From: Actinomycetota bacterium
Lineage (GTDB): Bacteria > Actinomycetota > Actinomycetes > Actinomycetales > Dermatophilaceae
Direction of reading: 5' to 3'
Length of the DNA: 64,000 nt
Assembly (NCBI GenBank): GCA_020161845.1
Contig: JAIUNK010000005.1
Coordinates: forward strand, 1 to 64,000
Shown: piece after piece, positions 17,490 through 43,067 of the stretch
Layout: the number at the start of each line of letters is the position of its first letter
Numbering within the stretch: position 1 is the first letter of the stretch
Program-made: the position numbers and the translations under genes
The notes under the pieces: model-generated
Database searches by the model: none
Told to the model about the DNA's origin: nothing
Seen by the model: the letters and a program-made list of their open reading frames with translations, nothing else

Positions 17490-17559
17490 TGCAGGCGTCC
17501 GCGCAGGGTTGGGGTCGCTATAGCAGCCCCAACCCTGCGTCGCTGGCTGCATTCTCGGC
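17490..17559 (+). repeat. Palindromic intergenic repeat, family 1, copy A
   Basis: A 36-bp dyad (17503-17538) with 12-base arms GCAGGGTTGGGG / CCCCAACCCTGC. The flanks TGCAGGC on the left and CTGCATTCTCGG on the right match copies B (18808-18877) and C (42998-43067, inverted). It is the most diverged of the three copies. The same-side edge continues into a tandem array. Confidence 0.85.
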
Positions 17560-17560
17560 C

Positions 17561-17650
17561 GCATCGCCACCGGCCGCATCGCCGCCGGCCGTGTCGCCGC
17601 CGGCCGTGTCGCCGCCGGCCGTGTCGCCGCCGGCCGTGTCGCCGCCGGCC
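17561..17650 (+). repeat. 15-bp tandem array attached to repeat copy A
   Basis: Six contiguous units: two beginning GCATCGCC and four identical GTGTCGCCGCCGGCC. The unit ends in CGGCC, the same bases that close the palindromic element just before the array, as if the array was copied out from the element's edge. Confidence 0.9.
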
Positions 17651-17721
17651 GGCGTGACGGCCAACCCCCGACGTGGGCGAACCCCCCGAAGTCGTACTCC
17701 ACAGCCGTGGGTGCCGGGCGA

Positions 17722-17730
17722 GTTATCCAC
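17722..17730 (+). other. Perfect DnaA-box-like sequence TTATCCACA
   Basis: TTATCCACA is identical to the E. coli consensus DnaA box and AT-rich against its surroundings. It lies 54 bases before the AbiEi-like gene. Similar sites occur at 47348 and 61915, both next to the second palindromic repeat family. DnaA binding is inference. Confidence 0.45.
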
Positions 17731-17783
17731 AACTGCGCGCCTCGGGCCGGCACAGGCCGAGCGGTTGCGCTGGGGTGGGCGTT

Positions 17784-18749
17784 GTGGATCTCCCGAGCGA
17801 CCTCGAAGCCCTTGTCCAGGCCCAGTACGGCGTCTTCACCCGGCGCCAGGCCATGGCGTGCGGACTGACCGTCGGCGATATCAAGTGGGCCCTGGGTCGA
17901 CGCTGGATCAGCGTGCTGCCCGGGGTGTACCTGGCGCACCGGGGATCGCCGCAGCGGGCGCAGCTGCTCATGGCGGGGCAGCTCTACGCGGGCGAGGAGG
18001 CGGTGCTGTCCGGGCCGGCCGCATGTCGGTGGCGCGGCCTGGAGCAGGCCAGCCGGACGGGCGTGGTGCACGTGATCGTGCCCACCTCTCGATCGAGCCG
18101 GCAGATCCGCTGGCTGCACATCCGACGCTCGTCGCTGCCGGCGGGGCTGCACCCCTCGGGGCCGTTACGCCTGGCCACGGTGGAGCGCGCCGTGGTCGAT
18201 GCGGCCCGGCTTGCGCCAGGGCTGGAGGACGCCACGGCGCTGGTCATCGAGGCGCTCCAGCGCCGACTCACGACGCTAGAACGCCTGGCCCACACCAATG
18301 ACGCCCTCGGCCGACCAGGCTCGGCCCTCACCAGTCGGGCCCTGCGCGCCGCAGCGGGGGGTGCCTGGTCCATCCCGGAACTCGCGCTCGGCCGACTCGT
18401 CCGGTCTTCCCGCGTGCTGCCGGAGATGTGGTGCAATCCGCGGCTCACGACGGCCGAGAGTCGACTCCTGGTCATGCCCGACGGCTGGTTCGACGATGTC
18501 GGGATGGCCGTGATGGTGCATTCCCGGCGGTGGCACGACGGCAGCCGTTCGGAGCTCACGGTCGAGCGCGACGGCGAACTCACGGCGTACGGCGTTGTCG
18601 TCTGCGCCATCACTCCGCGCTCCATCGAGCGGGAGCCGGCGCGGGTGCTGGACTTCCTCGAGAGAACGTACGCCGCGACGCGCGCCACCCGGACCCGAAC
18701 CCCGGCGGTGACGGCCACTCAGTGGGATCCCTACCACCTCACTGCGTAG
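17784..18749 (+). CDS. AbiEi-like N-terminal domain protein (actinobacterial type IV antitoxin-like)
   Basis: 321 residues. The N-terminal part (FTRRQAMACGLTVGDIKWALGRRWISVLPGVYL pattern, about 13-50) is the winged-helix AbiEi_4-like module: a GxFTRxQA-type start and a short helix-turn-helix ending in PGVYL. The rest (about 190-300), with two acidic positions in WFDDVGMAVMVHSR and a late ER-rich helix, resembles the degenerate endonuclease-fold tail seen in many actinobacterial proteins of this group, but I cannot confirm catalytic residues. No AbiEii nucleotidyltransferase toxin is adjacent, so this is an orphan and the antitoxin label may not describe its function. Flanked by direct copies A and B of a palindromic repeat. 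GTG 17784 is the likely start. Confidence 0.6.
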   Translation: MDLPSDLEALVQAQYGVFTRRQAMACGLTVGDIKWALGRRWISVLPGVYLAHRGSPQRAQLLMAGQLYAGEEAVLSGPAACRWRGLEQASRTGVVHVIVPTSRSSRQIRWLHIRRSSLPAGLHPSGPLRLATVERAVVDAARLAPGLEDATALVIEALQRRLTTLERLAHTNDALGRPGSALTSRALRAAAGGAWSIPELALGRLVRSSRVLPEMWCNPRLTTAESRLLVMPDGWFDDVGMAVMVHSRRWHDGSRSELTVERDGELTAYGVVVCAITPRSIEREPARVLDFLERTYAATRATRTRTPAVTATQWDPYHLTA

Positions 18750-18807
18750 GCCCACGGCCTTGGTCTGTGCCGCCAGCCGCCAGCCGCCAGCCGGCACGCT
18801 CGATGGC

Positions 18808-18877
18808 TGCAGGCATGGATGCAGGGTTGGGGTCGTGGGAGCGACCCCAACCCTGCAACGCCGGATGCAATCTCGAC
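18808..18877 (+). repeat. Palindromic intergenic repeat, family 1, copy B
   Basis: A 36-bp dyad (18821-18856), arms GCAGGGTTGGGGTCG / CGACCCCAACCCTGC, inside a 70-bp core that is almost identical to the reverse complement of copy C at 43 kb. It has the same orientation as copy A, so the two form direct repeats bracketing the AbiEi-like gene. Its right edge ends in CTCGAC. Confidence 0.9.
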
Positions 18878-18960
18878 GGGCGGGGGTTCGACGGGCGGGC
18901 GGGCCGGCTTGCGGCGATACAACCGGCGGCGGTTCGACGGGCGGGGGGTTCGACGAAACT
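18871..18960 (+). repeat. Irregular TTCGACGGGCGGG repeats attached to copy B
   Basis: From the CTCGAC edge of copy B the sequence runs into imperfect reiterations of TTCGACGGGCGGG, at about 18885, 18932 and 18950, mixed with GGCGG runs. They are less regular than the arrays next to copies A and C but sit on the same side. Confidence 0.6.
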
Positions 18961-18967
18961 GGCCGGG

Positions 18968-19438
18968 TCAGTCTTCGACGAGGCCCGCGAGCCGGGCCAG
19001 GGTGGCGTGCATGCCCTTGTCGTACCAGCCGGTCATGCCGGTCCGCGCGGCGATCGGGGCGAGCAGACCTGTGGGGCCCAAGTCGTGCGTCTCCCGCACC
19101 AGCGTCCCGCCCTCAACGGGTTCCAGCTCGTAGCGCCAGATCTGGCCGCCGGCGACCCGCCGACCACGGAACTCGCTGCTGGTGGCCCAGGCGATCCGGC
19201 GGCCCTCCTCGAACTCGACGACGTCGTTGATCGAGCGGTAAGGGATCGGGCCGACTTGCTGGCCCATCGTGAACCGGACGCCGGAAGCCAGTCGGCCCGG
19301 GCCGTGCGGGGCGCCCTTGACCATCCCCGACCCGTCGATGAGGTGATGCTTGAACGGGTCGGCCAGGATGTCGAAGATCGTGGCCGCGTCGGCCCGGATG
19401 AAGCGTTCGACGCTGCGGGACGACGATTGCGTGCTCAT
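18968..19438 (-). CDS. SRPBCC / polyketide-cyclase-like START-fold protein
   Basis: 156 residues. The pattern SVERFIRADAATIFDILADPFKH at the N-terminus, the central GVRFTMGQQVGPIPYRSINDVVEFEEGRRIAWAT strands and the long C-terminal helix (GWYDKGMHATLARLAGLVE) are typical of the SRPBCC hydrophobic-ligand-binding fold. No catalytic assignment is possible. The ATG at 19438 is 60 bases from the divergent EamA transporter start, so the two share a promoter region. A TAGCGT hexamer lies eight bases before the start codon. Confidence 0.8.
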   Translation of the reverse strand: MSTQSSSRSVERFIRADAATIFDILADPFKHHLIDGSGMVKGAPHGPGRLASGVRFTMGQQVGPIPYRSINDVVEFEEGRRIAWATSSEFRGRRVAGGQIWRYELEPVEGGTLVRETHDLGPTGLLAPIAARTGMTGWYDKGMHATLARLAGLVED

Positions 19439-19498
19439 GGGTCCCGACGCTACCCGAGCACGGCGTACGGTTCGCGGCGCCGGATAACCTTGCCGTTC

Positions 19499-20407
19499 GT
19501 GACCCCATCCCCGGTGCAGCGGCTGTATTCGTCCGCACCCCTCCTGCTGTGCCTGGCGGTGCTCGGCTGGTCGGGCAACTTCGTGGTGGGGCGGCTCGTC
19601 GGCGGCTCCGTCCCGCCGACCCAGCTGGCGTTCCTGCGCTGGGTCGGAGCGAGTCTGGTCATCGTTCCGATCGCGTGGCGGCACGTGCGGGTGGATGCCG
19701 CGGAGCTGCGGCGCCGCTGGGTCTCGGTGCTGGTCCTGTCGGTCACCGGGGTGGCGATCTTCAACTCGTTCGTCTACCACGGGCTGCAGACCACGACCGC
19801 GGTGAACGGGCTGCTGCTGCAGTCGGTGTGTCCCGTGTTGATCGTGCTGATCACGTTCGCGGCGCACCGCGAGGTGCCGCATGTGGCTCAGCTGGCCGGG
19901 CTGGTCGTTTCGCTGGTCGGGGTGTGGCTGGTGGTGTCGCGCGGGCAGGTGTGGGGCGGCGCCGGCCTGGCCGCCACGGTGGGCGACGCCTGGATCCTGG
20001 CCGCCGTGGCGTCGTACGCGGTCTACACCGTCGCCCTGCGTACCAAGCCCTCAGTGCACCCGTTCACCCTGCTCGCGGTCACCTTTGTGTTGGGTGCGCT
20101 CTGTATCGCGCCGTTCGCGGCGGCCGAGTGGGCCGGGGGCCGGTCCATGCCGACGACGGCCGGGGCCGCGGCGGCGGTGGTCTACGTGGCGCTGGTGCCG
20201 TCGATCGTGTCGTACTTCTGCTTCAACCGCGGCGTCGAGCTTGCCGGGGGCGCCCGGGCCGGGCAGTTCATCCATCTGATGCCGGTCTTCGGGGCGGTGC
20301 TGGCGTTCGTGTTCATCGGGGAGCGGCTGGCCTGGTACCACCTCGTCGGAGCCGCGGTCATCGCCTGCGGCATCTGGCTGTCGGGCCGCCAAGCCGAGTC
20401 CGCCTGA
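19499..20407 (+). CDS. EamA (DMT superfamily) transporter
   Basis: 302 residues with ten predicted membrane helices in two homologous EamA halves (about 8-140 and 150-290). The first half contains WSGNFVVGRL and the TQLAFLRW loop, the second the YTVALRTKPSVHP and PIFG-like MPVFGAVLAFVFIGERL motif, both standard in drug/metabolite exporters. Substrate cannot be inferred. Start is GTG 19499; the open frame continues far upstream but those residues have no family character and overlap the SRPBCC gene antisense. Confidence 0.85.
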   Translation: MTPSPVQRLYSSAPLLLCLAVLGWSGNFVVGRLVGGSVPPTQLAFLRWVGASLVIVPIAWRHVRVDAAELRRRWVSVLVLSVTGVAIFNSFVYHGLQTTTAVNGLLLQSVCPVLIVLITFAAHREVPHVAQLAGLVVSLVGVWLVVSRGQVWGGAGLAATVGDAWILAAVASYAVYTVALRTKPSVHPFTLLAVTFVLGALCIAPFAAAEWAGGRSMPTTAGAAAAVVYVALVPSIVSYFCFNRGVELAGGARAGQFIHLMPVFGAVLAFVFIGERLAWYHLVGAAVIACGIWLSGRQAESA

Positions 20408-20463
20408 CGCCCGCCGGCCACCCCTGGTGCCGACCGGTCGGGCGCGCCGAGCGGTCGCCCCTC

Positions 20464-20477
20464 CATACCGTGGTATG
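20464..20477. promoter_or_regulatory. Palindrome CATACC-GT-GGTATG upstream of the thioredoxin gene
   Basis: A perfect 6-base inverted repeat with a two-base centre, flanked on both sides by GCGCCGAGCGG copies (about 20444, 20487, 20505). Being AT-richer than its surroundings and 60 bases before a start codon, it looks like an operator. No regulator is assigned. Confidence 0.3.
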
Positions 20478-20538
20478 TGGGCGGGTGCGCCGAGCGGGCG
20501 GGCGCGCCGAGCGGTTCTGGTCCGGGCATGCTTGGGGC

Positions 20539-20856
20539 GTGACGGATTACGCAACCGAACAGCCGCTGCGCGCGGACGTCGACGCCCTGACCGGCCCGGC
20601 CGTGGTGGCCTTCGGCACCGACTGGTGCGGCTACTGCCTGGCGGCGGAGCGGCACATCGCCCCCGCGCTCGCCGCGCATCCCGACGTGCGGGTCCTCGCC
20701 GTCGAGGACGGGCCGGGGCGGCCGCTCGGACGGTCGTACCGCGTCAAGCTGTGGCCGACCCTGATCTTCCTGCGCGACGGGGTCGAGGTCGCGCGGGTGG
20801 TCCGCCCGAGCAACCGCGAGGCCGTCGACGAGGCCCTGGCCGCCATCACCGGCTAG
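20539..20856 (+). CDS. Thioredoxin-family protein
   Basis: 105 residues, a single thioredoxin domain with the active-site motif WCGYC (about 31-35), cis-proline region KLWPTLIFLRDG and no signal peptide, so a cytosolic thiol-disulphide protein. The active site differs from the classical WCGPC, which usually changes redox potential. GTG 20539 is the start; an upstream ATG at 20528 is out of frame. The 3' end overlaps the convergent lysR-type gene by 11 bases. Confidence 0.85.
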   Translation: MTDYATEQPLRADVDALTGPAVVAFGTDWCGYCLAAERHIAPALAAHPDVRVLAVEDGPGRPLGRSYRVKLWPTLIFLRDGVEVARVVRPSNREAVDEALAAITG

Positions 20857-21871
20857 CGGCGTCGGTCACGCATGGCGCCGGGGAGTCAGCTGTGGCTCGG
20901 ACGTGGGCCCGCAGCGCCGCGAGGACGACCCGGATGGCCGGGCTGTCCTGCGAGCTGCGCCGCCAGGCCGCCTCGACCGTGCGGGTCGGGGCCGGGCTGA
21001 CCGGCAGGGCGACCAGCCCCGCCGGGAGCGCCGGGCGGGCCAGCCGCGGGACCAGCGCGATGCCCCCGCCCGCGGCGACCAGCGCGATCTGGGTCGAGAA
21101 GTCGTCGATGCGGTGGCGTACCTCGGGCTGCGGCGAGCGGGCGAACAGCCGCCGGAACCAGTCGTGGCAGGCCGTGCCCGGCGGGCTGGTCACCCACGCG
21201 TCGCCGCGCAGGTCGGCGGCGGTCACGGCGGGTCTGCCCGCCAGCGGATGGTCGGCCCGGACGATGACGTCGCCCACGTCGACGGACAGCTGTTCGGTGC
21301 GCACCACTCGCCGTACCGTTGACCCCCCGGACGATCCTCGGGCCGTCCCGCGGGGCCCGGCGGCCCCCGCCCCGATCGCCGTTTCCCGCACCGACCCCCC
21401 GGACCAGGCCGGTAGCGCGGCCGAGTCGTGCAGCAGGGCCAGGTCGGCGGCGCCGGTGGCGAGCGCCGCCGCGGCCTCCGCGGGGTCCTGCTCGCGCACC
21501 TCCAGGGTCAGCGCCGGATGCCGTACGCCGAGAGCGGGCAGACACGGCACCAGCAGGCCGCGGATCGCCGTCGAGAAGGCGACGACCCGGAGCGTGCCGA
21601 GGGGTTCGGCCGATCGCGCCACGGCCGCCTGAGCGGCGCGCTCCATCGCGGCGAACACCTCGGGGGCCGCGTCGCACAGGGACTCGCCCGCCGAGGTGAG
21701 CACCACGCCGCGCCCCGCACGCGCGAGCAGCGCCACGCCCACCTGCGCCTCGAGCCGCTTGACCTGCTGAGAGACGGCCGACGGAGTGAACCCCAACGCC
21801 TCGGCAGCGGCGGCGACCGACCCGGTGTCGGCGATGAGGGTCAGCGCCCGGAGGGCCGCGGCGTCGATCAT
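20846..21871 (-). CDS. LysR-family transcriptional regulator
   Basis: 341 residues. N-terminal winged helix-turn-helix (about 3-62, with GSVAAAAEALGFTPSAVSQQVKRLE) and a periplasmic-binding-like effector domain (about 88-320). A glycine/arginine-rich insert near residues 165-190 lies in the effector domain. It diverges from dapA across 72 bases, the usual layout for a LysR regulator and its target, so control of a lysine or diaminopimelate step is plausible but inferred. Its own transcript looks leaderless: TAGCGT ends exactly six bases before the ATG. LysR proteins of this type commonly repress themselves from the same intergenic site. Confidence 0.88.
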   Translation of the reverse strand: MIDAAALRALTLIADTGSVAAAAEALGFTPSAVSQQVKRLEAQVGVALLARAGRGVVLTSAGESLCDAAPEVFAAMERAAQAAVARSAEPLGTLRVVAFSTAIRGLLVPCLPALGVRHPALTLEVREQDPAEAAAALATGAADLALLHDSAALPAWSGGSVRETAIGAGAAGPRGTARGSSGGSTVRRVVRTEQLSVDVGDVIVRADHPLAGRPAVTAADLRGDAWVTSPPGTACHDWFRRLFARSPQPEVRHRIDDFSTQIALVAAGGGIALVPRLARPALPAGLVALPVSPAPTRTVEAAWRRSSQDSPAIRVVLAALRAHVRATADSPAPCVTDAASR

Positions 21872-21877
21872 AAAGCA

Positions 21878-21883
21878 ACGCTA
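21878..21883 (-). promoter_or_regulatory. Leaderless -10 of the lysR-type gene
   Basis: TAGCGT on the minus strand followed by six bases and ATG. A TTGATT lies 15 bases upstream as a weak -35. Confidence 0.45.
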
Positions 21884-21943
21884 CCGAATAACACGAGTAA
21901 TCAATCGCTAGACCTGAGGTATCCCGCGAGGCACCCTGGGTAC

Positions 21944-22855
21944 ATGACACACACTCCCGCCCGTCCGTTCGGTTCCGTGCTCACGGCGATGGTCACCCCG
22001 TTCAAGCCCGACGGCTCGCTGGATCTGGACGGCGCCCGCGCGGTCGTCGAGCACCTGCTCGCCAACGGCCACGACGGCATCGTCGTCAACGGCACGACGG
22101 GGGAGTCGGCGACGTTGTCCGACGACGAGAGCGTCACGATGATGCGCGTCGTCGCCGAGGCCGTGGCCGGGCGCGCCCAGGTGGTGGCCGGGGTAGGCAG
22201 CAACGACACCCGGCATGTCGTCGAGATGGTCGCACGCGCGCGGGACGCGGGGGCGACGGGCCTGCTGCTCGTGTCGCCGTACTACAACAAGCCCACGCAG
22301 CGCGGCCTGATCGCGCACTGCCGGGCGGTCGCCGAGGCGAGCGAGCTGCCGATCTTGCTCTACGACATCCCGGGCCGCACGGGCATCCCGTTCACCACGG
22401 CGACGCTGCTGGAGCTGGCCAGCCTGCCCACCATCCAGGGCGTCAAGGACGCCAAGGGCGACCAGTGGGAAGCGACCCGGCTGATGGCCGAGACCAACCT
22501 GGCCTGGTACTCCGGTGCCGACGAGGACAACCTCGCGTTCCTGGCGCTGGGTGCCTCGGGCGTGGTCAGCGTGGTCGGGCACGTGGCTGGAGCGCACTAC
22601 CGGGCGATGATCGATGCGGTCGACGCCGGCGACCTGGTCACGGCGCGGGAGATCCATCGGCGCCTGATCCCGGTGGTGAACGCGATCATGAAGACCTCCC
22701 AGGGCGCGATCATGGCCAAGGCTGCCCTGGTCGAGCTGGGTGTCATCGAGCACGCGACCGTCCGGTTGCCGCTGGTGGAGTCCACCGGGGACGAGCTGCA
22801 GATCCTGCGCGACGGCCTGCGCCGGTCCGGCATCTCGAATCCCGAAGGCGTCTGA
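21944..22855 (+). CDS. dapA: 4-hydroxy-tetrahydrodipicolinate synthase (DapA)
   Basis: 303 residues, full length for the family. The protein condenses pyruvate with aspartate semialdehyde in lysine and diaminopimelate synthesis. Visible hallmarks: VVNGTTGESATLS (about 42-54, the TTGE substrate loop), SPYYNKPTQ (about 108-116, catalytic Tyr), YDIPGRTG (about 138-145, Arg) and the Schiff-base lysine in GVKDAKGD (about 166-173). Cytosolic tetrameric TIM barrel by family. It stands apart from other lysine genes but is paired with a divergent LysR regulator. DapA-like paralogues of other function exist, yet the key residues here all match true DapA. Confidence 0.9.
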   Translation: MTHTPARPFGSVLTAMVTPFKPDGSLDLDGARAVVEHLLANGHDGIVVNGTTGESATLSDDESVTMMRVVAEAVAGRAQVVAGVGSNDTRHVVEMVARARDAGATGLLLVSPYYNKPTQRGLIAHCRAVAEASELPILLYDIPGRTGIPFTTATLLELASLPTIQGVKDAKGDQWEATRLMAETNLAWYSGADEDNLAFLALGASGVVSVVGHVAGAHYRAMIDAVDAGDLVTAREIHRRLIPVVNAIMKTSQGAIMAKAALVELGVIEHATVRLPLVESTGDELQILRDGLRRSGISNPEGV

Positions 22856-22993
22856 CGTTCGCTCGTGCTGACGATCCGATTCGACCAGCGCGGTTGGAAG
22901 CTGAAGTGGGACGGGGGTGAGCCCCTGGGTGGCCTCCCCTCGGGTTCGTGCGCGGGCAACGATCTCCCGGCGTTCTGGTCGGGGATGCGGTGG

Positions 22994-24688: not shown

Positions 24689-24993
24689 GACACCAAGTAT
24701 CGCATACAGTTTCGATGAGGGCAAGCGCCACGGCATCGAACACGAGAAGGATCAAGGGAACCACCGAAGCTGGCGGACGTGCACGAGGACGGCATCGGCG
24801 CGCACCGTTCGTGATGCTGATGCCTCGGGGGCAGGCATCGTCGCGGGGACCGAAAGACCGGATGCGCTTTCGTCGACGCCGGCAGCGTGCCCGGGAGGGT
24901 CGTCCGGTCACGCGGCGACCTGCCTCGCCGGGAACGACCTCCGCGCCGAGCGACCTCCGCGCCGAGCGACCCCCGCGCCGAGCGACCCCCAAG
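24689..24993. other. 305-bp intergenic region with a tandem array
   Basis: Holds the start region of the DUF222 gene on its left and a 16-base tandem array on its right (24934-24990). Frames across it have no protein character. I see no RNA gene. Confidence 0.5.
24934..24990. repeat. 16-bp tandem array with GCGCCGAGCG core
   Basis: About three and a half units of CGACCTCCGCGCCGAG. The internal GCGCCGAGCG also recurs three times before the thioredoxin gene (20440-20515). It sits just downstream of the SRPBCC gene. Confidence 0.8.
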
Positions 24994-25494
24994 TCAGACG
25001 CGGACCACTCCGCCGGCGTGCTCGACGATGTTCGTCATCACCGCGGGCAGGCCGGAGACGATCGAGCGGCCGAGCACCGCGCCCCACACCGCCGCGGCCG
25101 GGCCGCTGAACCGGACCCGGTGAACGAGGTCGTACGTTCCCGCTGCGGCGCCCTGCGTCGGGGTGAGGCGGTGTTCGACGTGCATGGTCGACCCCGGGTA
25201 CCGCGACTGGATATCGAAACGCCCCTCGTCGCGGTTGACCCGGATGACCGTGAAGTGGCTCATCGGGCTTTTGGCGGGCTTGATCCACCCGGTCGTGCCG
25301 GGTGGCGGCGCAGCACTGCGGCCCGCCCCGGCGGACGGCGTCGGGCGATCGGGCGAATGCTCCCGTGGGGTGGCGTCGTATCCCGCCGCGCGGACGTCGA
25401 CGTCGTCCTGCGGCCAGTACGTCGGGTCGACCCAGCGCAGCCATACGGCATCGGGATCCACCCGCGCCGTCAGGCAGTGCTCAGCCGTCCACAT
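24994..25494 (-). CDS. SRPBCC family polyketide-cyclase/dehydrase-like protein
   Basis: 166 residues. The C-terminal half reads like a START-fold protein: strands FTVIRVNRDEGRFDIQSRYPGS, HVEHRLTP and YDLVHRVRFSGPAAAVWGAVLGRSIVSGL, then a final helix. The N-terminal WTAEHCLTARVDPDAVWLRWVDPTYWPQ is the typical first strand and helix with the DPxxVW pattern. Ligand unknown. It lies in the same direction as, and downstream of, the AmmeMemoRadiSam operon (96 bases after amrS), so it could be read through from there. Start at ATG 25494 with a moderate purine-rich site. Confidence 0.75.
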   Translation of the reverse strand: MWTAEHCLTARVDPDAVWLRWVDPTYWPQDDVDVRAAGYDATPREHSPDRPTPSAGAGRSAAPPPGTTGWIKPAKSPMSHFTVIRVNRDEGRFDIQSRYPGSTMHVEHRLTPTQGAAAGTYDLVHRVRFSGPAAAVWGAVLGRSIVSGLPAVMTNIVEHAGGVVRV

Positions 25495-25590
25495 GTGGCC
25501 ACCATCTCACGCCCCGGTCGCGCGATCTCATTGGGCGGCAGCGATGCTCGGGTCGCATGGATGCAACGGGCCAGTGCCGACCCGACCGGC

Positions 25591-26676: not shown

Positions 26677-27287
26677 CGGGCGCCGCCGGGGTGCGGGGGC
26701 GCCGGGTACGCCGTGACGGTGTACCGCGAGATCGCGATGTCATCCGACCAAAACCCTTGCGGCAGGTGGGCTTTCATCACCAAGGACGCAAGGAAGTCGG
26801 CGGGGTCGGGGATCTGGTCCCACACCTGGGGCAGATAGGTGCCGCGCCGCCCGCCGTACTCCAGCACGAGCCCGTCGACGAACGGCCGCAGCTTGGCGAC
26901 GAGGTCCGCGCGGTCGACGTACGGCAGTGCCTCCCGCGGCGAGAGCACCGACACCTCGATCGCCACATCGGGGAACTCCGCCGGCGTCAGCGGCGGGAAC
27001 CGGGGATCGCGGAAGGACGCCGACCGGGCGTTGCCCTCGACGTCCTCGCGCAGCGACCGATACGGCTCGATGGTCCCGATGCAGCCGCGCAGCCTGGGCC
27101 GCCCACCGCCCGCGGCCACATGCAGCGTCACGAAGGCTGCGCCCACTTCGTCGAGCCACGGTGCGGCACAGGGGGGTCCGCCAGCCAGGTCGGGCAGGCC
27201 CAGCCCGGACCGGATCGCCCGCTCGGCCAGGTCGAGCAGGATCGGCCCGCGATCTGCGGTGGCCTCGGGCGTGCGGGAGACGGTCAC
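26673..27287 (-). CDS. amrA: AmmeMemoRadiSam system protein A (AMMECR1 domain)
   Basis: 204 residues, one AMMECR1 domain: AFVTLHVAAGGGRPRLRGCIGTIEPYRSL (about 50-80) contains the conserved LRGCIG motif whose cysteine is invariant, and EVSVLSPREAL and GRRGTYLPQVW follow in family order. The fold is known from structures, the activity is not. GTG 27287 overlaps the stop of amrB (GTGA) and its own stop overlaps the ATG of amrS. Confidence 0.92.
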   Translation of the reverse strand: MTVSRTPEATADRGPILLDLAERAIRSGLGLPDLAGGPPCAAPWLDEVGAAFVTLHVAAGGGRPRLRGCIGTIEPYRSLREDVEGNARSASFRDPRFPPLTPAEFPDVAIEVSVLSPREALPYVDRADLVAKLRPFVDGLVLEYGGRRGTYLPQVWDQIPDPADFLASLVMKAHLPQGFWSDDIAISRYTVTAYPAPPHPGGAR

Positions 27288-30950: not shown

Positions 30951-30957
30951 GGGCCGA

Positions 30958-31039: not shown

Positions 31040-31045
31040 GCTGGC

Positions 31046-31432: not shown

Positions 31433-31445
31433 CCACGGGCCGACC

Positions 31446-33185: not shown

Positions 33186-33233
33186 ATCTCCCGTCGCACC
33201 CCGCCGGTCAGCGTCGCCCCCGCCAGGAGCTGA

Positions 33234-34820: not shown

Positions 34821-34930
34821 CCGCTGCCCCTGGCTAACTGAGTGGTAACTACAGCCTCGAACCCCACGGTAGCGCCGTCGTGGACGATCGTGCAGTGGTG
34901 TCCGCGTGAACGGCCAGGGCCCGGCGTCGG

Positions 34931-36265: not shown

Positions 36266-36560
36266 GTCGTACGTCGAGGGCCGCCGGCGCCGTTGATCCG
36301 CGGCCGGCTCACGGCGTACCGGGTGGGCACCCTCCGTCGCGGCGGCCGGACGCAATGGAGGCGGGGCAGCGGCCAGCCCGACCCCGCGGATCCCAGGCCC
36401 AGGCCCGGGCCCGGGCCCGGGCGTCCTGGTGCGGCGCAACCCCTCGCCACCGACGTTCGGATCCACGCAGGCTACGGTAAAAGAGGCTCTCACCAGGGAC
36501 AACGGTCCATGTATCTGTCATCGACCGTCCCGAACGGCCGACCCGTGCGCGGTCAGTGAC
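36266..36560. other. 295-bp region upstream of the MFS gene with CCCGGG reiteration
   Basis: Contains about five hexamers related to CCCGGG/CCCAGG at 36384-36420 and no recognisable gene. The MFS promoter must be here, but I see no clear -10/-35 pair. Confidence 0.4.
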
Positions 36561-37571
36561 TCAGCAGGGCCGGCTCTTCGGGGCGTTCTCGGCCGTCTTG
36601 TCCGGGTCCCGCTCCACGACCGCACCCAGGGCCTCGTCGATGGCGACCATGGTGGCCTGGTCGAGCCGTACGCCGGCGGCAGCCACGCTATCCGCGAGCT
36701 GCTCCGGACGGGAGGCGCCGACCAGCGCCGCCGCGACATTGTCGTTCTGCAGCACCCAGGCGATGGCCAGGGTCGCCATCGACAGTCCGGCCGCCTGCGC
36801 GACGGGCCGCAGGCGTTGCACGGCGGTCAGTACGTCGTCGCGCATCCATCGCGCGATCATCGCCTGACCACCCGAGCTGTCGGTGGCGCGGCTGCCCTGC
36901 GGCGCGGGACTGCCGGGGGCGTATTTGCCCGAGAGCACGCCCTGCGCCATCGGCGACCAGACGATCTGGGAGATGCCCAGCTCCCGGCAGGTGGGGACCA
37001 CCTCGTCCTCGATGACCCGCCAGAGCATCGAATACTGCGGCTGGCTGGAGATGATCGAGAAGCCGGCCTGGTGCGCGAGGGCCTGACCGGCGCGGATCTG
37101 CTCGGCGGTCCACTCGCTCACCCCGATGTAGAGGGCCTTGCCCGAGCGCACCACGTCGCCGAAGGCCGCGATCGTCTCCTCCAGCGGCGTCTCGGTGTCA
37201 TAGCGATGAGCCTGGTAGAGATCGACGTAGTCGGTCTGCAGCCGGCGTAGCGACCCGTTGATCGACTCCATGATGTGCTTGCGGGACAGCCCGCAGTCGT
37301 TCGGCCCGCCCGGACCGGTCGGCCAGTAGACCTTGGTGAAGATCTCCAGCGACTCGCGACGCTGCCCCTGCAGGGCCGCGCCGAGGACCGTCTCGGCCGC
37401 GGTGTTGGCGTAGACGTCCGCCGTGTCGAACGAGGTGATCCCCGCCTCCAGGGCCGCGCGCACGCAGGCGGTGGCGGCATCGTTCTCGATCTGCGATCCG
37501 TGGGTGAGCCAGTTGCCGTAGGTGATCGCGCTGATCTTCAGGCCGCTGGCGCCGAGATACCTGTGCTCCAT
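36561..37571 (-). CDS. Aldo/keto reductase (Kv-beta/YghZ-like)
   Basis: 336 residues. Full TIM-barrel AKR with catalytic Asp and Tyr in FDTADVYANTAAE, Lys in FTKVYWP and His in YQAHRYDTETPLEET; the C-terminal NADPH site is GASRPEQL. Closest in feel to the potassium-channel beta-subunit-like AKRs. Physiological substrate unknown. ATG 37571 is preceded by TAGCGT at exactly six bases, so it is probably leaderless. It is divergent from the amidase gene. Confidence 0.9.
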   Translation of the reverse strand: MEHRYLGASGLKISAITYGNWLTHGSQIENDAATACVRAALEAGITSFDTADVYANTAAETVLGAALQGQRRESLEIFTKVYWPTGPGGPNDCGLSRKHIMESINGSLRRLQTDYVDLYQAHRYDTETPLEETIAAFGDVVRSGKALYIGVSEWTAEQIRAGQALAHQAGFSIISSQPQYSMLWRVIEDEVVPTCRELGISQIVWSPMAQGVLSGKYAPGSPAPQGSRATDSSGGQAMIARWMRDDVLTAVQRLRPVAQAAGLSMATLAIAWVLQNDNVAAALVGASRPEQLADSVAAAGVRLDQATMVAIDEALGAVVERDPDKTAENAPKSRPC

Positions 37572-37577
37572 GGCGGC

Positions 37578-37583
37578 ACGCTA
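37578..37583 (-). promoter_or_regulatory. Leaderless -10 of the aldo/keto reductase gene
   Basis: TAGCGT, six bases, ATG. Same hexamer as before the lysR-type gene and bdhA. Confidence 0.45.
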
Positions 37584-37687
37584 TCGGCCCGCCCGGACGC
37601 CGGCGCACCCGGGGCGGGCGCCTCGGGTTCCTGGCTCTCCGGGTGCGGCGCCTCCAGGGCCGCGGCCGATCTGCCAGGATGCGGGTC

Positions 37688-39181
37688 ATGGCAGCGCTTG
37701 CGCCGTACCCGGGCCGCCCGGGTCCGAGCGGGGAACCCGACCTGACCACCGCCCTGGGGACCGCCGCGGCGCTGCGGGTCGGCGCGACCACGGCCAGCGC
37801 CGTGGTGGAGGCGACGCTGCGGCGGATCGCCGACGTCGGGCCGCGGGTCGGCGCCTTCGTGCACGTCGCGACCGAGCAGGCGATGCAGGCGGCCGCCGAG
37901 GCCGACCGGCGCCTCGCCGAGGTGCCGAACCGTGCGGACCGCGAGCGCGACCTGCCGCCGCTGCTCGGCGTGCCCTGCCCGGTCAAGGACCTCAATCCGG
38001 TCGCGGGAATGCCGTACGTCGCAGGCTCGCGCGCCCTGCTCGGCAACGTCGCGGACGTCGACGACGGGGTGGTGCACCGGTTGCGGGACGCCGGCGCCAT
38101 CGTGGTGGGCAAGACCACCACCCCCGAGTTCGGCTTCCCCTGCTACACCGAACCCGACGTGGCCCCACCGGCCCGCACCCCCTGGGATCTCACCCGCTCG
38201 GCCGGGGGCTCCTCCGGCGGGGCCGCGGCCGCCGTCGCCGCGGGACTGGTCCCCATCGCGCACGGCAGCGACGGCGGTGGGTCCATCCGGATCCCCGCGG
38301 CCGCCTGCGGGCTCGTCGGGCTGAAGACGTCGCGCGGCCGGATCAGCCCCGGGCCGTTGGGGGTCGACGGGCCGGGACTGGCCACGAACGGCGTCCTGAC
38401 CCGGACCGTGCGCGACACGGCCCTCGGTCTCGACGTGCTGACCATCGGTTGGCCGGGCGACGGCTATCGGTTGCCCCCGCCGGCCACGACGTACCTGCAG
38501 GCTTGCGACCGCCCCCCCGGCCCCCTGCGGGTGGGGGTTCTGCGGGAGCCGATCATCGCCGATTGCGCGGTGGCGCCGGCGGCGCTGCGGGCCGTTGAGC
38601 GCGCCGAGGCGGTGCTCCGCGGCCTGGGCCACGACGTCACGGAGGCGCCCCGACCGTTCCCCGCCGACCGGTGGGCGGCTTTCGCGGCCCTGTGGTCCGT
38701 CCTGGCCCTGTCGATCCCGTTGCCGCCGCAGGCTGAGGACCTGCTCACGCCCCTGACGCGGTGGCTGCGCGAGCGCGGCCGGGCGGTGAGCGGGATCGAG
38801 TACGCCGTGGCGGTCGCCGCCACCCAGCAGCTCGCGCGGGCGACGGCCGTCGCCTGGGACTCCTACGACGTGATCCTGACCCCCACCCTGGCCCAGCCGC
38901 CGGCCCCGATCGGCTCGCTGCGCGACGACGCCGACCCGGCCGCCGACTTCGACGCCCAGTGCGCGTTCACGCCGTGGACCAGCACCTATAACCTCACCGG
39001 GCGACCCGCGATCTCGCTGCCGCTGCACCGGGAGGTCACCGGCGCGGGGGAGGCGGCGGTCGAACTGCCGTATGGCGTGATGCTCGGCGCCCGCCTCGGC
39101 GAGGACGAGACGCTGCTGTCGTTGGCTGCGCAGCTGGAAGCGGCCGACCCGTGGGTCGGCACGATCCCCACGGTGGGGTGA
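37688..39181 (+). CDS. Amidase (amidase signature family)
   Basis: 497 residues. The Ser-cisSer-Lys triad is visible: Lys in PCPVKDLN (about 99-106), the signature SAGGSSGGAAAAVAAGLVPI with the cis-Ser and nucleophile region (about 174-195), and SDGGGSIRIPAA (about 198-209). Hydrolyses an amide bond of an unknown substrate; GatA is less likely because no gatB/gatC is near. I prefer ATG 37688 over an upstream in-frame ATG. It ends six bases before the convergent bdhA. Confidence 0.9.
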   Translation: MAALAPYPGRPGPSGEPDLTTALGTAAALRVGATTASAVVEATLRRIADVGPRVGAFVHVATEQAMQAAAEADRRLAEVPNRADRERDLPPLLGVPCPVKDLNPVAGMPYVAGSRALLGNVADVDDGVVHRLRDAGAIVVGKTTTPEFGFPCYTEPDVAPPARTPWDLTRSAGGSSGGAAAAVAAGLVPIAHGSDGGGSIRIPAAACGLVGLKTSRGRISPGPLGVDGPGLATNGVLTRTVRDTALGLDVLTIGWPGDGYRLPPPATTYLQACDRPPGPLRVGVLREPIIADCAVAPAALRAVERAEAVLRGLGHDVTEAPRPFPADRWAAFAALWSVLALSIPLPPQAEDLLTPLTRWLRERGRAVSGIEYAVAVAATQQLARATAVAWDSYDVILTPTLAQPPAPIGSLRDDADPAADFDAQCAFTPWTSTYNLTGRPAISLPLHREVTGAGEAAVELPYGVMLGARLGEDETLLSLAAQLEAADPWVGTIPTVG

Positions 39182-39187
39182 GCGGCG

Positions 39188-39964
39188 TCAGTACGCGGTC
39201 CAGCCGCCCTCGATCGGGTAGCTGCACCCGGTCATCGACGCGCTCGACGGGCCGGTGAGGAAGGCGCACAGGTCGGCGACCTCCTCGGGCTCGATGAGCC
39301 GCTTCACGAAGACCCGCTCCAGCATGATCTTCTCGATGACCTCGGACTCGGGGATGCCGTGGGCCTTGGCCTGGTCGGCGATCTGCTTCTCGACGAGGGC
39401 GGTGCGCACGTAGGCCGGGTTGACGGTGTTCGAGGTGACCCCGTGCGGCGCCCCCTCCAGGGCGATGACCTTGCTGAGGCCCTCCAGACCATGCTTGGCC
39501 GTGACGTAGGCGCTCTTGAACGGGCTGGCCGACAGGCCGTGCGCCGAGGAGAGGTTGACGATGCGGCCCCAACCCCGGGCGTACATGTGCGGCAGGCTCT
39601 GCCGCACGATGTAGAACGGCGCGTGCAGCATCACCGTCATGATCAGCTCGAACTTCTCCAGCGGGAACTCTTCGATCGGGGCGACCTGCTGGATCCCCGC
39701 GTTGTTCACGATGATGTCCACGTCATGGGGCAGCGCCTCGGCCAGGGCGTCGAGGTTGGACAGGTCGCACGGGGTGGGCACGATGCCCTCGACGCGGTCG
39801 GCCAGGGCGGTGAGCCCTTCGGCGTTCACGTCGACCGCGATGACCTGCGCGCCGAGCGCCGCGAACTTCTCCGCGCAGGCCAGGCCGATGCCGCTGGCCG
39901 CGCCGGTGACGAGGGCCTTGCGGCCGCGGTGGTAGTCGGGAGAGGGGAATGCCGGCTGCGTCAT
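39188..39964 (-). CDS. bdhA: 3-hydroxybutyrate dehydrogenase (SDR family)
   Basis: 258 residues. Classical SDR: nucleotide motif TGAASGIG (about 20-27), NNAGIQ (about 87-92), Ser in VNLSSAHG and active-site YVTAK (about 153-157). The NNAGIQ and the C-terminal CAFLTGPSSASMTGCSYPIEGGWTAY patterns are those of D-3-hydroxybutyrate dehydrogenase, which interconverts 3-hydroxybutyrate and acetoacetate in polyhydroxybutyrate or ketone-body use. No phaC or phaZ in the window. ATG 39964 follows TAGCGT by six bases (leaderless). Confidence 0.85.
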   Translation of the reverse strand: MTQPAFPSPDYHRGRKALVTGAASGIGLACAEKFAALGAQVIAVDVNAEGLTALADRVEGIVPTPCDLSNLDALAEALPHDVDIIVNNAGIQQVAPIEEFPLEKFELIMTVMLHAPFYIVRQSLPHMYARGWGRIVNLSSAHGLSASPFKSAYVTAKHGLEGLSKVIALEGAPHGVTSNTVNPAYVRTALVEKQIADQAKAHGIPESEVIEKIMLERVFVKRLIEPEEVADLCAFLTGPSSASMTGCSYPIEGGWTAY

Positions 39965-39970
39965 GTCAGA

Positions 39971-39976
39971 ACGCTA
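39971..39976 (-). promoter_or_regulatory. Leaderless -10 of bdhA
   Basis: TAGCGT on the minus strand, six bases before the ATG. Confidence 0.45.
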
Positions 39977-40058
39977 GCGGTACGCCGCACGGGGTGGGCC
40001 GCTTCGCGGTGCCCACCGCCCGGCGCCCACCGCCCGGCGCCCTTGCCGCGCACGTCGG

Positions 40059-40142
40059 GTGATCCCGTGCAATCACGTCTGGGCGGGTGATCCCGCGCGG
40101 GCACGTCTGGCCGGAGGCTCCCGTGCGGGCACGTCTGGTCGG
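40059..40142. repeat. 28-bp tandem array
   Basis: Three exact-length units at 40059-40086, 40087-40114 and 40115-40142, each containing TCCCGYGCRRKCACGTCTGG; a partial fourth follows. No spacers, so not CRISPR. Confidence 0.85.
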
Positions 40143-40183
40143 AGGCTTCGCTCATCCGCCGTCGTCCCGGCCTTGACAGACCT

Positions 40184-40239
40184 CGTGACAGCCTCGCTGC
40201 TGCCCCAGCGACAGCGACCCTGTCGCGACGGCTGTCACG
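40184..40239. other. Nested stem-loop with perfect 10-bp outer stem
   Basis: Outer arms CGTGACAGCC (40184-40193) and GGCTGTCACG (40230-40239) pair perfectly; inside, GCGACAG (40208-40214) pairs with CTGTCGC (40220-40226). There is no following T-tract, so not an intrinsic terminator. It could be a structured leader RNA, a DNA-binding site or a repeat remnant. Confidence 0.5.
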
Positions 40240-40590
40240 GTCCGCAGGGCCGGCGCCCCGAGGCGACCTGAGGTGGCGTGTCTCGGAATGCGGGCGGGGT
40301 CGTGCGTCGATGGATAATGGCGCCTTATTGTTCCTATAACGCAACGACGGGCTGCCGATGAGAACGGTGGCCCCTCGCCCCGCTTGTTTCTCCACTCTGA
40401 AGGGCTACATCGTGCAGCGAATGCAGGTCAGCCGGGTTCGGCGCCGCTGGATCGACGCGTGTCGCGTCGCCGCGTCGCTCTGTCGCTGATCCCGGCTCCC
40501 GACGGCAGCGCCCGCTCCGTCACCTGCCCCGCGGCCCGCTCTCTTCCACGGAGAGCTGCGCCGCCCCGCCTGCTCGAAGGGGAAAACCCG

Positions 40591-41499
40591 ATGCCCACCC
40601 CGATCTCCGTCGCCCAGTCCGCGGTTGCCCAGCCCGAGGTTGACCGGTCCGCCGTCGCCCAGCCCGAGGTTGGCCGGTCCGCGGTTGCCCAGTCCACCCT
40701 TGGCCAGCCTGCCGCTGTGGAGCCGCCGGCCGCGCGCATCCTCGCCGACGACGCGGTCGACCGCGTCGCCCCTGATCTTGCCCAGCCCGTGGAGGTGCTG
40801 CTCGCCGGCGTGCTGCGCGGTCTGCGCGCCCGGGCCGCGGCCGCACCGATCGACCCGGTTGCCGCTCTGTTGGCCGACCTCGCGGAGGCTGGGCTGCTGG
40901 ACGTCGGCGTCGACGCGGCGCGGGCCCGGGTGCATGGCTACGGCGCGGCCGGCTCGGACTCGCCGCCCCACGGATCCGCCGTCACGCCCGATGCCGTGGT
41001 GGCCGTGCTCGCGCAGGTCTGCCGGGTCGGCGCCGCTGCGGTGTTGGTGCAGCGGGCGGCCATCGACGTGCTCACCCACGCCCGACGTACCCCCGCGAAC
41101 GAGCGGCTCCTCAACGCGCTGCGCCGTGGGTCGGTCGGCGCCGCGCTGCCCGCGCCGGGCGAGGCGCCCCTCGACGGCGAACTCCTGGTGGACGGATCGG
41201 TGCTGGTCACCGGCACGAGCGTGCGGCTGCTGGGGGTCCGTCCCGGCGTGGCCTTGCTGGTGCGTGTGCGGGTGGGCGAGCGGGTCCGGTGGGCCTGGGC
41301 AACCCGTGGTACGGCGGGGATCACGGTGTGCGATGGGGGCCCCGCCGGCACGCCGGGTTCGGCCCATGGTGGGGTCGAGGTGCTGCTGGATCGCGTGATC
41401 CTGCGGGCGGACGCCCTGATCGACACCGACATCGAGCCCACGACGGGCCCCGGCGCGGAGCTGCTGAACGGCCCGGACCAGGAGGCGCAGGCCGCCTGA
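40591..41499 (+). CDS. Acyl-CoA dehydrogenase-like protein lacking the C-terminal domain
   Basis: 302 residues. After a repetitive N-terminus (AVAQPEV units of 10 residues, encoded by 30-base repeats), residues about 60-290 follow the layout of acyl-CoA dehydrogenases: an alpha-helical part (LADLAEAGLLDVGVD, VVAVLAQVCRVGAAAVLVQ) then the beta-domain pattern where LVDGSVLVTGTSVRLLGVRPG stands for the usual DGDxYVLNGxKxWItNa. The FAD-contacting Thr/Ser-rich and substrate-binding motifs are eroded, and the C-terminal helical domain with the catalytic Glu is absent. It may be a non-catalytic relic or a divergent protein; family assignment is inference from pattern only. ATG 40591 has a GAAGGGG site. 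Confidence 0.5.
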   Translation: MPTPISVAQSAVAQPEVDRSAVAQPEVGRSAVAQSTLGQPAAVEPPAARILADDAVDRVAPDLAQPVEVLLAGVLRGLRARAAAAPIDPVAALLADLAEAGLLDVGVDAARARVHGYGAAGSDSPPHGSAVTPDAVVAVLAQVCRVGAAAVLVQRAAIDVLTHARRTPANERLLNALRRGSVGAALPAPGEAPLDGELLVDGSVLVTGTSVRLLGVRPGVALLVRVRVGERVRWAWATRGTAGITVCDGGPAGTPGSAHGGVEVLLDRVILRADALIDTDIEPTTGPGAELLNGPDQEAQAA

Positions 41500-41508
41500 C
41501 ACTCCTAG

Positions 41509-41547
41509 CGATATATCGTTGACATATCGCGATAGTCGTTGCATGCT
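41509..41547 (+). promoter_or_regulatory. Operator-promoter of the PadR gene
   Basis: Two perfect 10-bp palindromes, CGATATATCG (41509-41518) and TATCGCGATA (41525-41534), sandwich a perfect -35 TTGACA (41519-41524). A CATGCT lies 17 bases downstream as -10 (41542-41547). The arrangement fits autorepression by the PadR protein encoded about 220 bases downstream, leaving a long 5' leader. Confidence 0.6.
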
Positions 41548-41769
41548 GGTGGTGCGGGCGCGATCGGCGCCCAGGCGGGGTCCGGATCGCCGCGCGGAGT
41601 GCCAGCGCGGGCCGACCGACCCGACGGCGCGAGCGGCGCCGCGCGAGCAGATCGCGCGAGGACGACCCGCGCCCTCCCTTCGACAAGGGACACCGGCACC
41701 ACACCACGGGAAGATCGGCCGAGCGCCGCCGCGATGACGCGCGCGCCGGCCACGAAAGGACACTCATTC

Positions 41770-42876
41770 ATGCATGGCGACAACAACGACAACTGGAACT
41801 GCGGCCCCGGCTGGGGTCGCGACGAGCGACGCTGGGACGACCGCCGGGGCGGCGACGCCCGCGGCCCGCGCGGCGGTGGACCGCGGCGACCCCAGGCCCC
41901 CCGCGGTGACTACCCGGGACGCGGCCCGCGCGAGGAGTTCGGCGGGCGCGGCCCGCGTGAGCGCGACCGCCGCGACCAGCAGGACCGAGGCGGCCCCTGG
42001 GGGCGTGGGGGACCGGCCGAATTCGGCGGCATCGGCGCGTTCTTCGGACCCGACGGGCCCTTCGGCGCCCACGGACCATTCGGACCCAACGGGCCGTTCG
42101 GCGCCAACGGGCCGTTCGGCGAAGAGGGTCCCTTCGGGCCCCGCGGGCCGTTCGGCGGCCCGGGCCGGGCCGGCTCCGTGGCGCCAGGGCCCGGCGAGCC
42201 CGGCGGTCCCATGGGGCCCGGCGGTCGGCGCGGACACCGCGGACACCGGGGCGGGTCGCGCGGACAGCGCGGGCGGGCTCGTCGCGGCGACGTACGGCTG
42301 GCCATCCTCGGCCTCCTCGCCGAGGGCGACCTCAACGGCTACCAGGTGATCCGGACGCTCGACGAGCGCACCGGCGGCGCCTGGCGTCCGAGCCCGGGCG
42401 CGATCTACCCGGCGCTGGCCCAACTGGAGGACGAGGGTCTCATCGTCCCCGCCGATGGCGGCGGGAAGGTCTTCACGCTCACCGACGCCGGCCGGGCCGA
42501 GGTCGAGCAGATCGGCGACCGGGCCCGCCCCTGGGAGGGTGTGGCCGAGGACGTCACGGCGGAGGCCGAGCAGGGCCTCGGCGGTACGGCGGAGCTGTGG
42601 GTCGCACTGGGCAAGCTCGGCCTGGCGACGCGCGCCGTGGGCCAGGCCGGCGATCCGGACGTGACCCGGGCCGCGACCGAGCTGCTGGAAGAGAGCCGCC
42701 GCGGCCTCTACCGGTTGCTGGCTCAGGAGCGGGCCGACGACCTGGAGGACGACGATCTCGACGACGAGGACCCGCAGGACGTCGTCGTCGGTGAGTCCGA
42801 CGATCCGCATGCTCCGGACGACGTCGTCGACGGCGAGGTCATCGACGAGGGCCGACCCGACCACCGGACCGAGTAA
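41770..42876 (+). CDS. PadR-family regulator with long GPFG-repeat N-terminal extension
   Basis: 368 residues. The winged-helix PadR domain is at about 173-245 (DVRLAILGLLAEGDLNGYQVIRTLDER, RPSPGAIYPALAQLEDEGLI, FTLTDAGRAEVE). It is preceded by about 170 disordered residues rich in Gly, Arg and Pro, including seven consecutive variants of GPFGxx (about 94-135), and followed by an acidic tail (about 320-368). Long Gly-rich leaders are seen in some actinobacterial PadR proteins; they may mediate assembly or partner binding. A good ribosome site, GAAAGGA, precedes ATG 41770. A palindromic operator around a -35 box lies upstream, implying autoregulation. Confidence 0.88.
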   Translation: MHGDNNDNWNCGPGWGRDERRWDDRRGGDARGPRGGGPRRPQAPRGDYPGRGPREEFGGRGPRERDRRDQQDRGGPWGRGGPAEFGGIGAFFGPDGPFGAHGPFGPNGPFGANGPFGEEGPFGPRGPFGGPGRAGSVAPGPGEPGGPMGPGGRRGHRGHRGGSRGQRGRARRGDVRLAILGLLAEGDLNGYQVIRTLDERTGGAWRPSPGAIYPALAQLEDEGLIVPADGGGKVFTLTDAGRAEVEQIGDRARPWEGVAEDVTAEAEQGLGGTAELWVALGKLGLATRAVGQAGDPDVTRAATELLEESRRGLYRLLAQERADDLEDDDLDDEDPQDVVVGESDDPHAPDDVVDGEVIDEGRPDHRTE

Positions 42877-42927
42877 CGTCGCCGGGCCGAGCGGCGTCGG
42901 GAGGAAGGCCACGGGGAGAACGGCTGA

Positions 42928-43003
42928 GCCGGCTGATCGCGTCGAGCCCGGCTGATCGCGTCGAGCCCGGCTGATCGCGTCGAGGCCGACTGATCGCGTC
43001 GAG
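42928..43003 (-). repeat. 19-bp tandem array attached to repeat copy C
   Basis: Four units of CCCGGCTGATCGCGTCGAG with one or two changes (42928, 42947, 42966, 42985). The last GTCGAG is shared with the edge of palindromic copy C, so in the orientation of copies A and B the array again lies on the right side. Confidence 0.9.
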
Positions 43004-43067
43004 ATTGCATCCGGCGCTGCAGGGTTGGGGTTGCTCCCACGACCCCAACCCTGCATCCATGCCTGCA
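42998..43067 (-). repeat. Palindromic intergenic repeat, family 1, copy C
   Basis: A 36-bp dyad (43019-43054) within a 70-bp core. Read on the minus strand it matches copy B at nearly every position. Located between the PadR gene and the deaminase gene. Confidence 0.9.

Follow-up and report, generated by a model that had tools for sequence, protein, structure and literature searches.

The 64,000-nucleotide stretch of DNA analysed here (the window) is part of contig C49 in a genome of 4.39 Mb and 82 contigs (G000; assembly GCA_020161845.1) from a member of the Dermatophilaceae that is related to Mobilicoccus caccae (82% over 1.2 kb). The subject of this report is a cassette in which a single gene, encoding a fusion of an AbiEi-type domain to a Vsr-type nuclease domain, is bounded on either side by a 74 bp palindrome, together with solo palindromes found elsewhere in the window and in the genome. 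The features are listed below, with cmsearch scores for a covariance model of the palindrome (R1) and with repeat units from Tandem Repeats Finder (TRF).

17484..17557, plus strand: palindrome A, upstream end of the cassette (79.3 bits; copy A was among those from which R1 was built)
17556..17651, no strand: tandem repeats at the right end of A (15 bp unit, 6.4 copies)
17784..18749, plus strand: AbiEi–Vsr gene, GTG start, 321 amino acids, the sole gene between palindromes A and B
18802..18875, plus strand: palindrome B, downstream end of the cassette, the stop codon of the gene lying 53 bp before it (70.7 bits)
18873..18955, no strand: irregular tandem repeats at the right end of B (15 bp unit, 5.4 copies, 69% matches)
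40169..40242, minus strand: solo palindrome of a second family, with GACAG boxes (35.6 bits)
42929..43003, no strand: tandem repeats at the right end of C as read on the minus strand (19 bp unit, 3.9 copies)
43000..43073, minus strand: palindrome C, a solo dispersed copy (83.3 bits)

Alignment of the copies gives an element of 74 bp with consensus edges CGAG...CTCG. By eye, each arm comprises two boxes 12 bp apart, so that each element presents four boxes around a core like TCGTGATAGC. A preliminary description of this DNA had reported A, B and C as copies of one palindromic repeat and had noted the closeness of B and C: all three are indeed present, though slightly displaced from the positions first given and longer (74 bp each, at 17484–17557, 18802–18875 and 43000–43073), and B and C are 96% alike over 73 bases. 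When folded as single-stranded DNA, A, B and C each beat all 200 of their own shuffles (z = -5.5, -6.3 and -6.7, respectively). An RNA element was considered and rejected, with zero Rfam families reaching the gathering score in the window and shuffled versions of the first alignment showing as much pair covariation as the alignment itself. Palindrome A lies 66 bp past the preceding gene and 227 bp ahead of the AbiEi–Vsr gene, and the genes next to the cassette are OsmC-like and SRPBCC-like on reading of their open reading frames (ORFs). Palindrome C lies between a PadR-type gene and an amidohydrolase-like gene, named in the same way.

The earlier characterisation of the repeat as a dispersed palindrome resembling repetitive extragenic palindromic (REP) sequences or miniature inverted-repeat transposable elements (MITEs) was right in kind. 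Eleven copies with GCAGGGTTGGGG-like arms, named A to K, are found in this genome (four on C49, three on C38 and one each on C39, C32, C34 and C14), and it was from these, together with one copy from genome G051, that R1 was built. The model adds a twelfth, degenerate copy on C80, a second type with GACAG boxes (three copies on C55, one on C78 and the one at 40169–40242 in the window) and a third type with GTGGGTGCA boxes (two copies each on C27, at 10264–10333 and 26804–26873, and on C65, at 93220–93289 and 94360–94429); weak matches on C1 and C13 were excluded from the count. The two third-type copies on C65 are 1.1 kb apart and bracket an ORF that reads as alpha/beta-hydrolase-like. The search for the dyad in this genome and its relatives that had been proposed at the outset thus yielded 11 copies at home, and the exact dyad has zero matches in GTDB and IMG/VR, where near genomes may be left out. 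An element search of the same-genus relatives G001–G003 gave no match, and too little intergenic DNA is in common at the orthologous loci to allow an empty-site reading.

Fold searches assign residues 1–191 of the protein encoded between A and B to the AbiEi antitoxin fold and residues 194–301 to the fold of the Vsr and EDxHD homing endonucleases, both with high confidence. Residues E199, D233 and H251 are invariant in 40 of 40 proteins, and the spacing of 18 between the aspartate and the histidine equals that of D51 and H69 in Vsr (residues as named in the part of PMC11879112 consulted). Sequence searches were less informative: the PDB holds zero relatives by sequence search, an NCBIfam search returned no family, the Pfam AbiEi_4 model scored under its cut-off, and the MTES_1575 and DUF559 models match weakly and are confined to distant relatives. 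The DUF559-type motif is usually E-x-D, and a first view of the nuclease part as dead, taken from the loss of this motif, was dropped after the fold search gave Vsr/EDxHD. The preliminary description had suggested looking for a REP-associated transposase as a partner. The suggestion to seek a partner gene proved to be the key lead, the partner being the AbiEi–Vsr gene rather than a REP-associated tyrosine transposase (RAYT; PF01797).

When the window protein was compared with the fetched loci by tblastn, matches adjoining palindromes were found in G057, G161, G051 and G099; the G057 homologue, a broken gene, sits between two palindrome copies. The window's own genome encodes a second AbiEi–Vsr gene on contig C55 (60019–60963), beside a GACAG copy, with palindromes paired at 23 of 37 positions upstream and 20 of 37 downstream. 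A six-sequence protein profile run over 396 genomes of the order, with at most five candidates scored per genome, identified at least 31 relatives that are full-length and score above 320 bits, spread over 22 genomes. The gene is present in 10 of the 17 genomes with element-model matches, as against 22 of the 396 (P = 4e-10, or 5e-8 without the two genomes that were sources of the model), a list of 17 that is not clean because some of its members hold matches resembling plain hairpins alone.

Fifty-eight loci were fetched from Mobilicoccus, Terrabacter, Humibacillus, Phycicoccus, Kineosporia, Kineococcus, Cellulomonas and other lineages, of which 55 remained once three partial genes (L246–L248) had been excluded before counting. 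Palindromes were sought by a letter-blind scan with a threshold of at least 25 of 37 paired positions. Already in the first 29 gene loci the best palindromes often lay at the two gene ends. Palindromes above threshold lie upstream of the gene in 32 of 55 loci and downstream in 29 of 54, compared with 5/149 and 12/136, respectively, for the other genes of the same loci, which form the fair control (an earlier control set, with 5/263, was mostly intragenic). Among intergenic gaps of at least 100 bp, 57 of the 91 beside the gene hold a palindrome, as against 7 of 52 elsewhere (P = 5e-9). The palindromes at the two ends are also related to each other: among the 26 loci with at least 24/37 paired positions on both sides, the upstream copy finds its best match in its own downstream copy in 23, and 0 of 5000 permutations reach the observed mean.

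The letters of the palindromes vary widely between lineages and the architecture is kept. The 12 bp period of the boxes is seen as an autocorrelation of 0.505 at lag 12, compared with 0.21–0.31 at the other lags tested, and lag 12 is the best for 88 of 142 arms. In control windows the same holds for 75 of 526 arms, and where palindromes adjoin other genes it holds for 8 of 48. The core, too, keeps its length of 12–14 bp. More distant homologues (around 60–100 bits) also have adjoining hairpins (7/19 upstream and 7/20 downstream, with 1/58 in control windows). These homologues were not counted as part of the same system because the one inspected, on contig C25 of this genome (ORF 6790–7815), has hairpins of another build: two strong ones, GGGGAGGGTTTGCTCCC and GGGGAGTGATAGCTAC, beside a gene of DUF559 type, with a VEIDG motif. 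On this example, the palindrome habit may be wider than the AbiEi–Vsr subfamily.

How are the scattered copies related to the gene? We compared 63 scattered palindromes of eight genomes with gene-flanking palindromes of those eight genomes, both sets being hand-picked from the fetched loci and not exhaustive. The best match lies in the palindrome's own genome in 52 of the 63 (50 of 61 if L251 and L270, which are the L215 cassette's own copies, are set aside), whilst permutation of the genome labels gave a mean of 8.7 and a maximum of 38 in 2000 trials. In the window's genome, the window gene is the partner of nine solo copies with GCAG boxes and of the degenerate C80 copy, whereas the C55 gene is the partner of four GACAG copies, the C55 pair among them by narrow margins. 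Palindrome C matches the window gene's palindrome best (a score of 65 versus 19 for other genomes) and the palindrome at 40169–40242 matches that of the C55 gene (39 versus 17).

Apart from overlaps of 2–4 bases with a gene end in four cases, all of 52 copies fall outside predicted genes, and the genes on either side of 49 copies are convergent in 20 cases, on the same strand in 26 and divergent in merely 3. For 47 copies the nearest 3′ gene end is a median of 36 bp away, and 21 of them lie within 25 bp of one. Solo copies also come and go, or change type, between related genomes, the types at the Kineosporia sites being assigned by eye. At one site genome A_224 has a solo copy where R_H_3 has a 27 bp gap with no copy, both flanks being 94% identical. 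A groundwater metagenome-assembled genome (MAG), whose contig includes the right flank (94%) but not the left, carries a different palindrome type at that place. At a second site, with coding flanks 93–97% alike, a single copy in A_224 corresponds to a pair in R_H_3 that encloses a palindrome of a third type, and the MAG has yet another type. In R_H_3 the same repeat also matches on either side of the gene at C98 and on at least seven other contigs. In Mobilicoccus, two genomes have a copy at the extreme end of a shared gene, overlapping the stop codon in M. caccae and three bases past it in a MAG, with GCAG-like and GACAG-like letters; there is none at this place in the window's genome. As a separate observation, two loci of G089 (L060 on C33 and L067 on C65) have a near-identical left flank of around 70 bp and unlike right flanks, as might be seen if the element lay at a junction.

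The gene itself behaves differently. A quick tree of 64 gene sequences, in which the nearest neighbours of the window gene are from Mobilicoccus and from its own genome, clusters by genomic site: six of ten sites form single clades, and the site label changes 15 times on the tree compared with 42.9 times in shuffles. The gene is thus resident, and a fast-hopping gene was rejected on the same clustering. Resident does not mean unchanging, as in 30 of the 33 orthologous pairs whose flanks are at least 85% alike the gene has diverged further than they have (means of 89.4% for the flanks and 75.7% for the gene, which falls to 66–77% in many). One extreme pair has 95.2% in the flank and 72.4% in the gene, and other pairs keep the gene as alike as the flank. 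The cassette is inverted in 21 of 94 pairs, the pairs not being independent of each other. Such patterns could arise by allele exchange or by inversion between the palindromes at the two ends of the cassette. At one site, L203 and L236 have the cassette in opposite orientations between flanks that are 95% alike, the gene being just 72% alike.

On the evidence of sequence comparison, the palindromes are the cognate DNA of a chromosomal AbiEi–Vsr fusion gene, often lying at both of its ends and scattered elsewhere in the genome. We infer from this that the protein binds and cuts the palindromes and spreads or homogenises them, and the joint reading towards which we lean is that the two form a pair resembling RAYTs and their REPINs (REP doublets forming hairpins). 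Acting as a multimer, the AbiEi-type domain would bind the four boxes, and nicks or cuts would be made by the nuclease domain at the palindrome or in an extruded hairpin. Repair would then copy palindromes into other intergenic sites, keeping the copies of one genome alike, and the whole would constitute a resident, vertically kept replicator pair akin to REPIN–RAYT that uses an unrelated enzyme. A broader proposition, which we advance more tentatively and without leaning towards it, is that a family of AbiEi–Vsr nucleases, each member with its own four-box code, spreads palindromes via 3′ gene ends in actinobacteria, gene and code changing together whilst the architecture stays fixed and the cassette flips or is exchanged at its resident site; this would be an independent counterpart of REPIN–RAYT.

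Several observations count against such an interpretation. Palindromes reach 24/37 on both sides of the gene in merely 26 of 54 loci. The copy numbers are low, at around 21 in this genome and 12 and 18 places in the two Mobilicoccus genomes. Eleven of the 63 solo copies have no best match at home (three third-type copies, all three from G188, four of the eight from M. caccae and one from G057), and no partner gene was found in this genome for the third type. By eye, there is no target-site duplication at the 11 A–K copies or at the copy-free Kineosporia site, where the entire intergenic stretch differs and thus gives no clean empty site. The gene is fixed at its sites and hence hardly moves itself, and in these proteins the position of the glutamate of the DUF559-type E-x-D is occupied by M, Q or L. 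Lastly, the element-model matches in L049, L050 and L054 look like plain hairpins, one of them in the gene-bearing genome G178.

To our knowledge, where an enzyme accounts for the spread of repetitive palindromes in bacteria, it belongs to one family, RAYT. In both systems, as far as the RAYT side is set out in the part of PMC8049555 consulted, a vertically kept gene is accompanied by its own dispersed intergenic hairpin repeats, and here the dispersed hairpins match the gene-flanking copies of their own genome. The copy number is below the 69–235 REPINs reported there for E. coli, the partner here is an AbiEi–Vsr fusion and the repeat has four boxes spaced by 12 bp. REP super-families carry a GTAG/CGTC tag (according to the part of PMC3733652 consulted); inspection by eye of a 12-copy alignment revealed none beside the hairpin. 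A search with the Y1 transposase model (PF01797, E 0.001) gave zero matches in this genome, the same model matching 5 of 14 controls. With RAYT and REP tags both absent, the pair is not a member of the REPIN–RAYT system.

Other known systems show partial likeness. The AbiEi fold is shared with AbiE type IV toxin–antitoxin systems (AbiEi, 6y8q; Rv2827c, 1zel), from which the cassette differs in its added C-terminal nuclease fold, in having palindromes on both sides and dispersed, and in that no toxin gene was seen beside the window gene on ORF reading, with no toxin model run. The Vsr-type fold with conserved acidic and histidine residues is that of Vsr and of EDxHD enzymes such as I-Bth0305I, but here the gene lies between two complete putative sites rather than being inserted in one, and the binding part is AbiEi-type and the sites dispersed. 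Like MITEs, the palindromes are short gene-less inverted-repeat elements spread across intergenic DNA; unlike them, they have no longer element with matching ends in repeat searches of this genome, their partner gene is not a known transposase and no target-site duplication was seen by eye at the copies inspected. The pairing of AbiEi–Vsr with palindromes is not described in the open-access literature searched, a body that leaves most subscription journals uncovered, nor in the parts consulted of PMC3733652, PMC8049555, PMC7319586, PMC3710099, PMC3943268 and PMC11879112. If the proposed pair is real, partnerships of a gene with a repeat arose more than once and with an unrelated protein, a role would be at hand for the large class of orphan AbiEi/Vsr-type genes, and the many lineages sharing one architecture would offer a natural series of protein–DNA codes in which to read the evolution of DNA recognition.

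The same palindromes might instead belong to a regulatory system, in which an AbiEi-type repressor uses the upstream palindrome as its operator and the solo copies as those of a regulon, with a nuclease fold that is dead or auxiliary. Antitoxins of the AbiEi family bind to inverted repeats within the promoters of their own genes (as given in the part of PMC7319586 consulted), and the 32 upstream copies with at least 25/37 paired positions have their centres 130–253 bp ahead of where the matched gene region starts. Downstream copies are, however, about as frequent as upstream ones and the scarcity of copies between divergent genes is the wrong distribution for operators; it is the placement of solo copies at 3′ gene ends, together with their turnover between the Kineosporia genomes with 94% identical flanks, that argues most strongly against a regulon, which we regard as rather unlikely. 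That very placement would suit ordinary bidirectional transcription terminators, alike within a genome by chance, as would the strength of the hairpins, the 12 of 136 other genes of the same loci with a downstream palindrome and the two hairpins of other build at the DUF559-type gene on C25. By eye, a T-run is absent after the 11 A–K copies, an absence with which terminators lacking a T-run remain compatible, and the pair covariation in the first alignment is unlike that of a conserved RNA stem. More telling are the 12 bp frame of four boxes, missing from other hairpins, and the letters common to one genome's copies and its gene palindromes: this lineage-specific code is the strongest argument against plain terminators, and we consider them unlikely.

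Greater weight is given to the gene by the proposal of a multi-allelic defence or conflict locus, at which a phage-defence or toxin-like nuclease is replaced one allele at a time and the palindromes serve as addresses or immunity marks. The divergence of the gene between conserved flanks and the inversions of the cassette are in keeping with this, and PADLOC lists AbiEi as a defence family. On the other side, there is no AbiEii-like toxin beside the window gene (by ORF reading, with no model run), zero phage homologues are found at E 1e-5 and the dispersed solo copies are not explained by a defence locus alone; we consider this proposal distinctly unlikely. Very unlikely, in our estimation, is the idea from which the analysis set out, that the element provokes tandem duplication at one fixed edge. 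Arrays do adjoin the right edges of A, B and C as first described, the unit at B being 15 bp by TRF and not 13, and they overlap the element by two to four bases. In a sample of 724 kb (the window and 33 stretches of 20 kb, with genes called by codon usage and arrays by TRF), the right edge adjoins an array in 8 of 16 copies of this genome and the left edge in 3, compared with 6.7% and 6.3%, respectively, for random intergenic 74-mers; the right-edge excess persists without the four window copies (5/12, P = 7e-4) and with a duplicated pair also counted once (4/11, P = 0.005). The same-side enrichment that had been anticipated is therefore above chance here, but it is absent from seven other genomes, where arrays adjoin the right edge of 3 and the left edge of 1 of the 52 copies, no more than controls. 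By the refuting condition set at the outset, the seeding of arrays thus fails as a trait of the family. Within the A–K family an array is no rule either, as four of the nine copies tested have a right-edge array (A, B, C and I) and one a left-edge array (B), G and H on C38 being outside this count. Element-free intergenic DNA is also rich in arrays, with 101 in the 86.2 kb of intergenic DNA sampled, and an array with nearly the unit of copy A lies at C28:217.4k, where the model finds no element. A local array effect in this array-rich genome is possible. In the REPIN–RAYT-like reading that we favour, the arrays would be by-products of array-rich intergenic DNA, perhaps promoted by replication stalled at hairpins.

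The clearest case of an element-derived array, and one in keeping with seeding, is that of the GACAG copy on C78 (62820–62891), whose right-hand array is built from the element's own right half (around 29 bp x 2.8). On C55, two copies 1.17 kb apart (138110–138182 and 139281–139354) bracket a large ORF and have around 90 bp of right flank in common, including a 20 bp array, indicating local duplication of the element with its flank. Elsewhere in the window, positions 7839–16769 are taken up by a single ORF of 2976 amino acids, which may encode a protein resembling cyclic beta-glucan synthase/GH94 enzymes.

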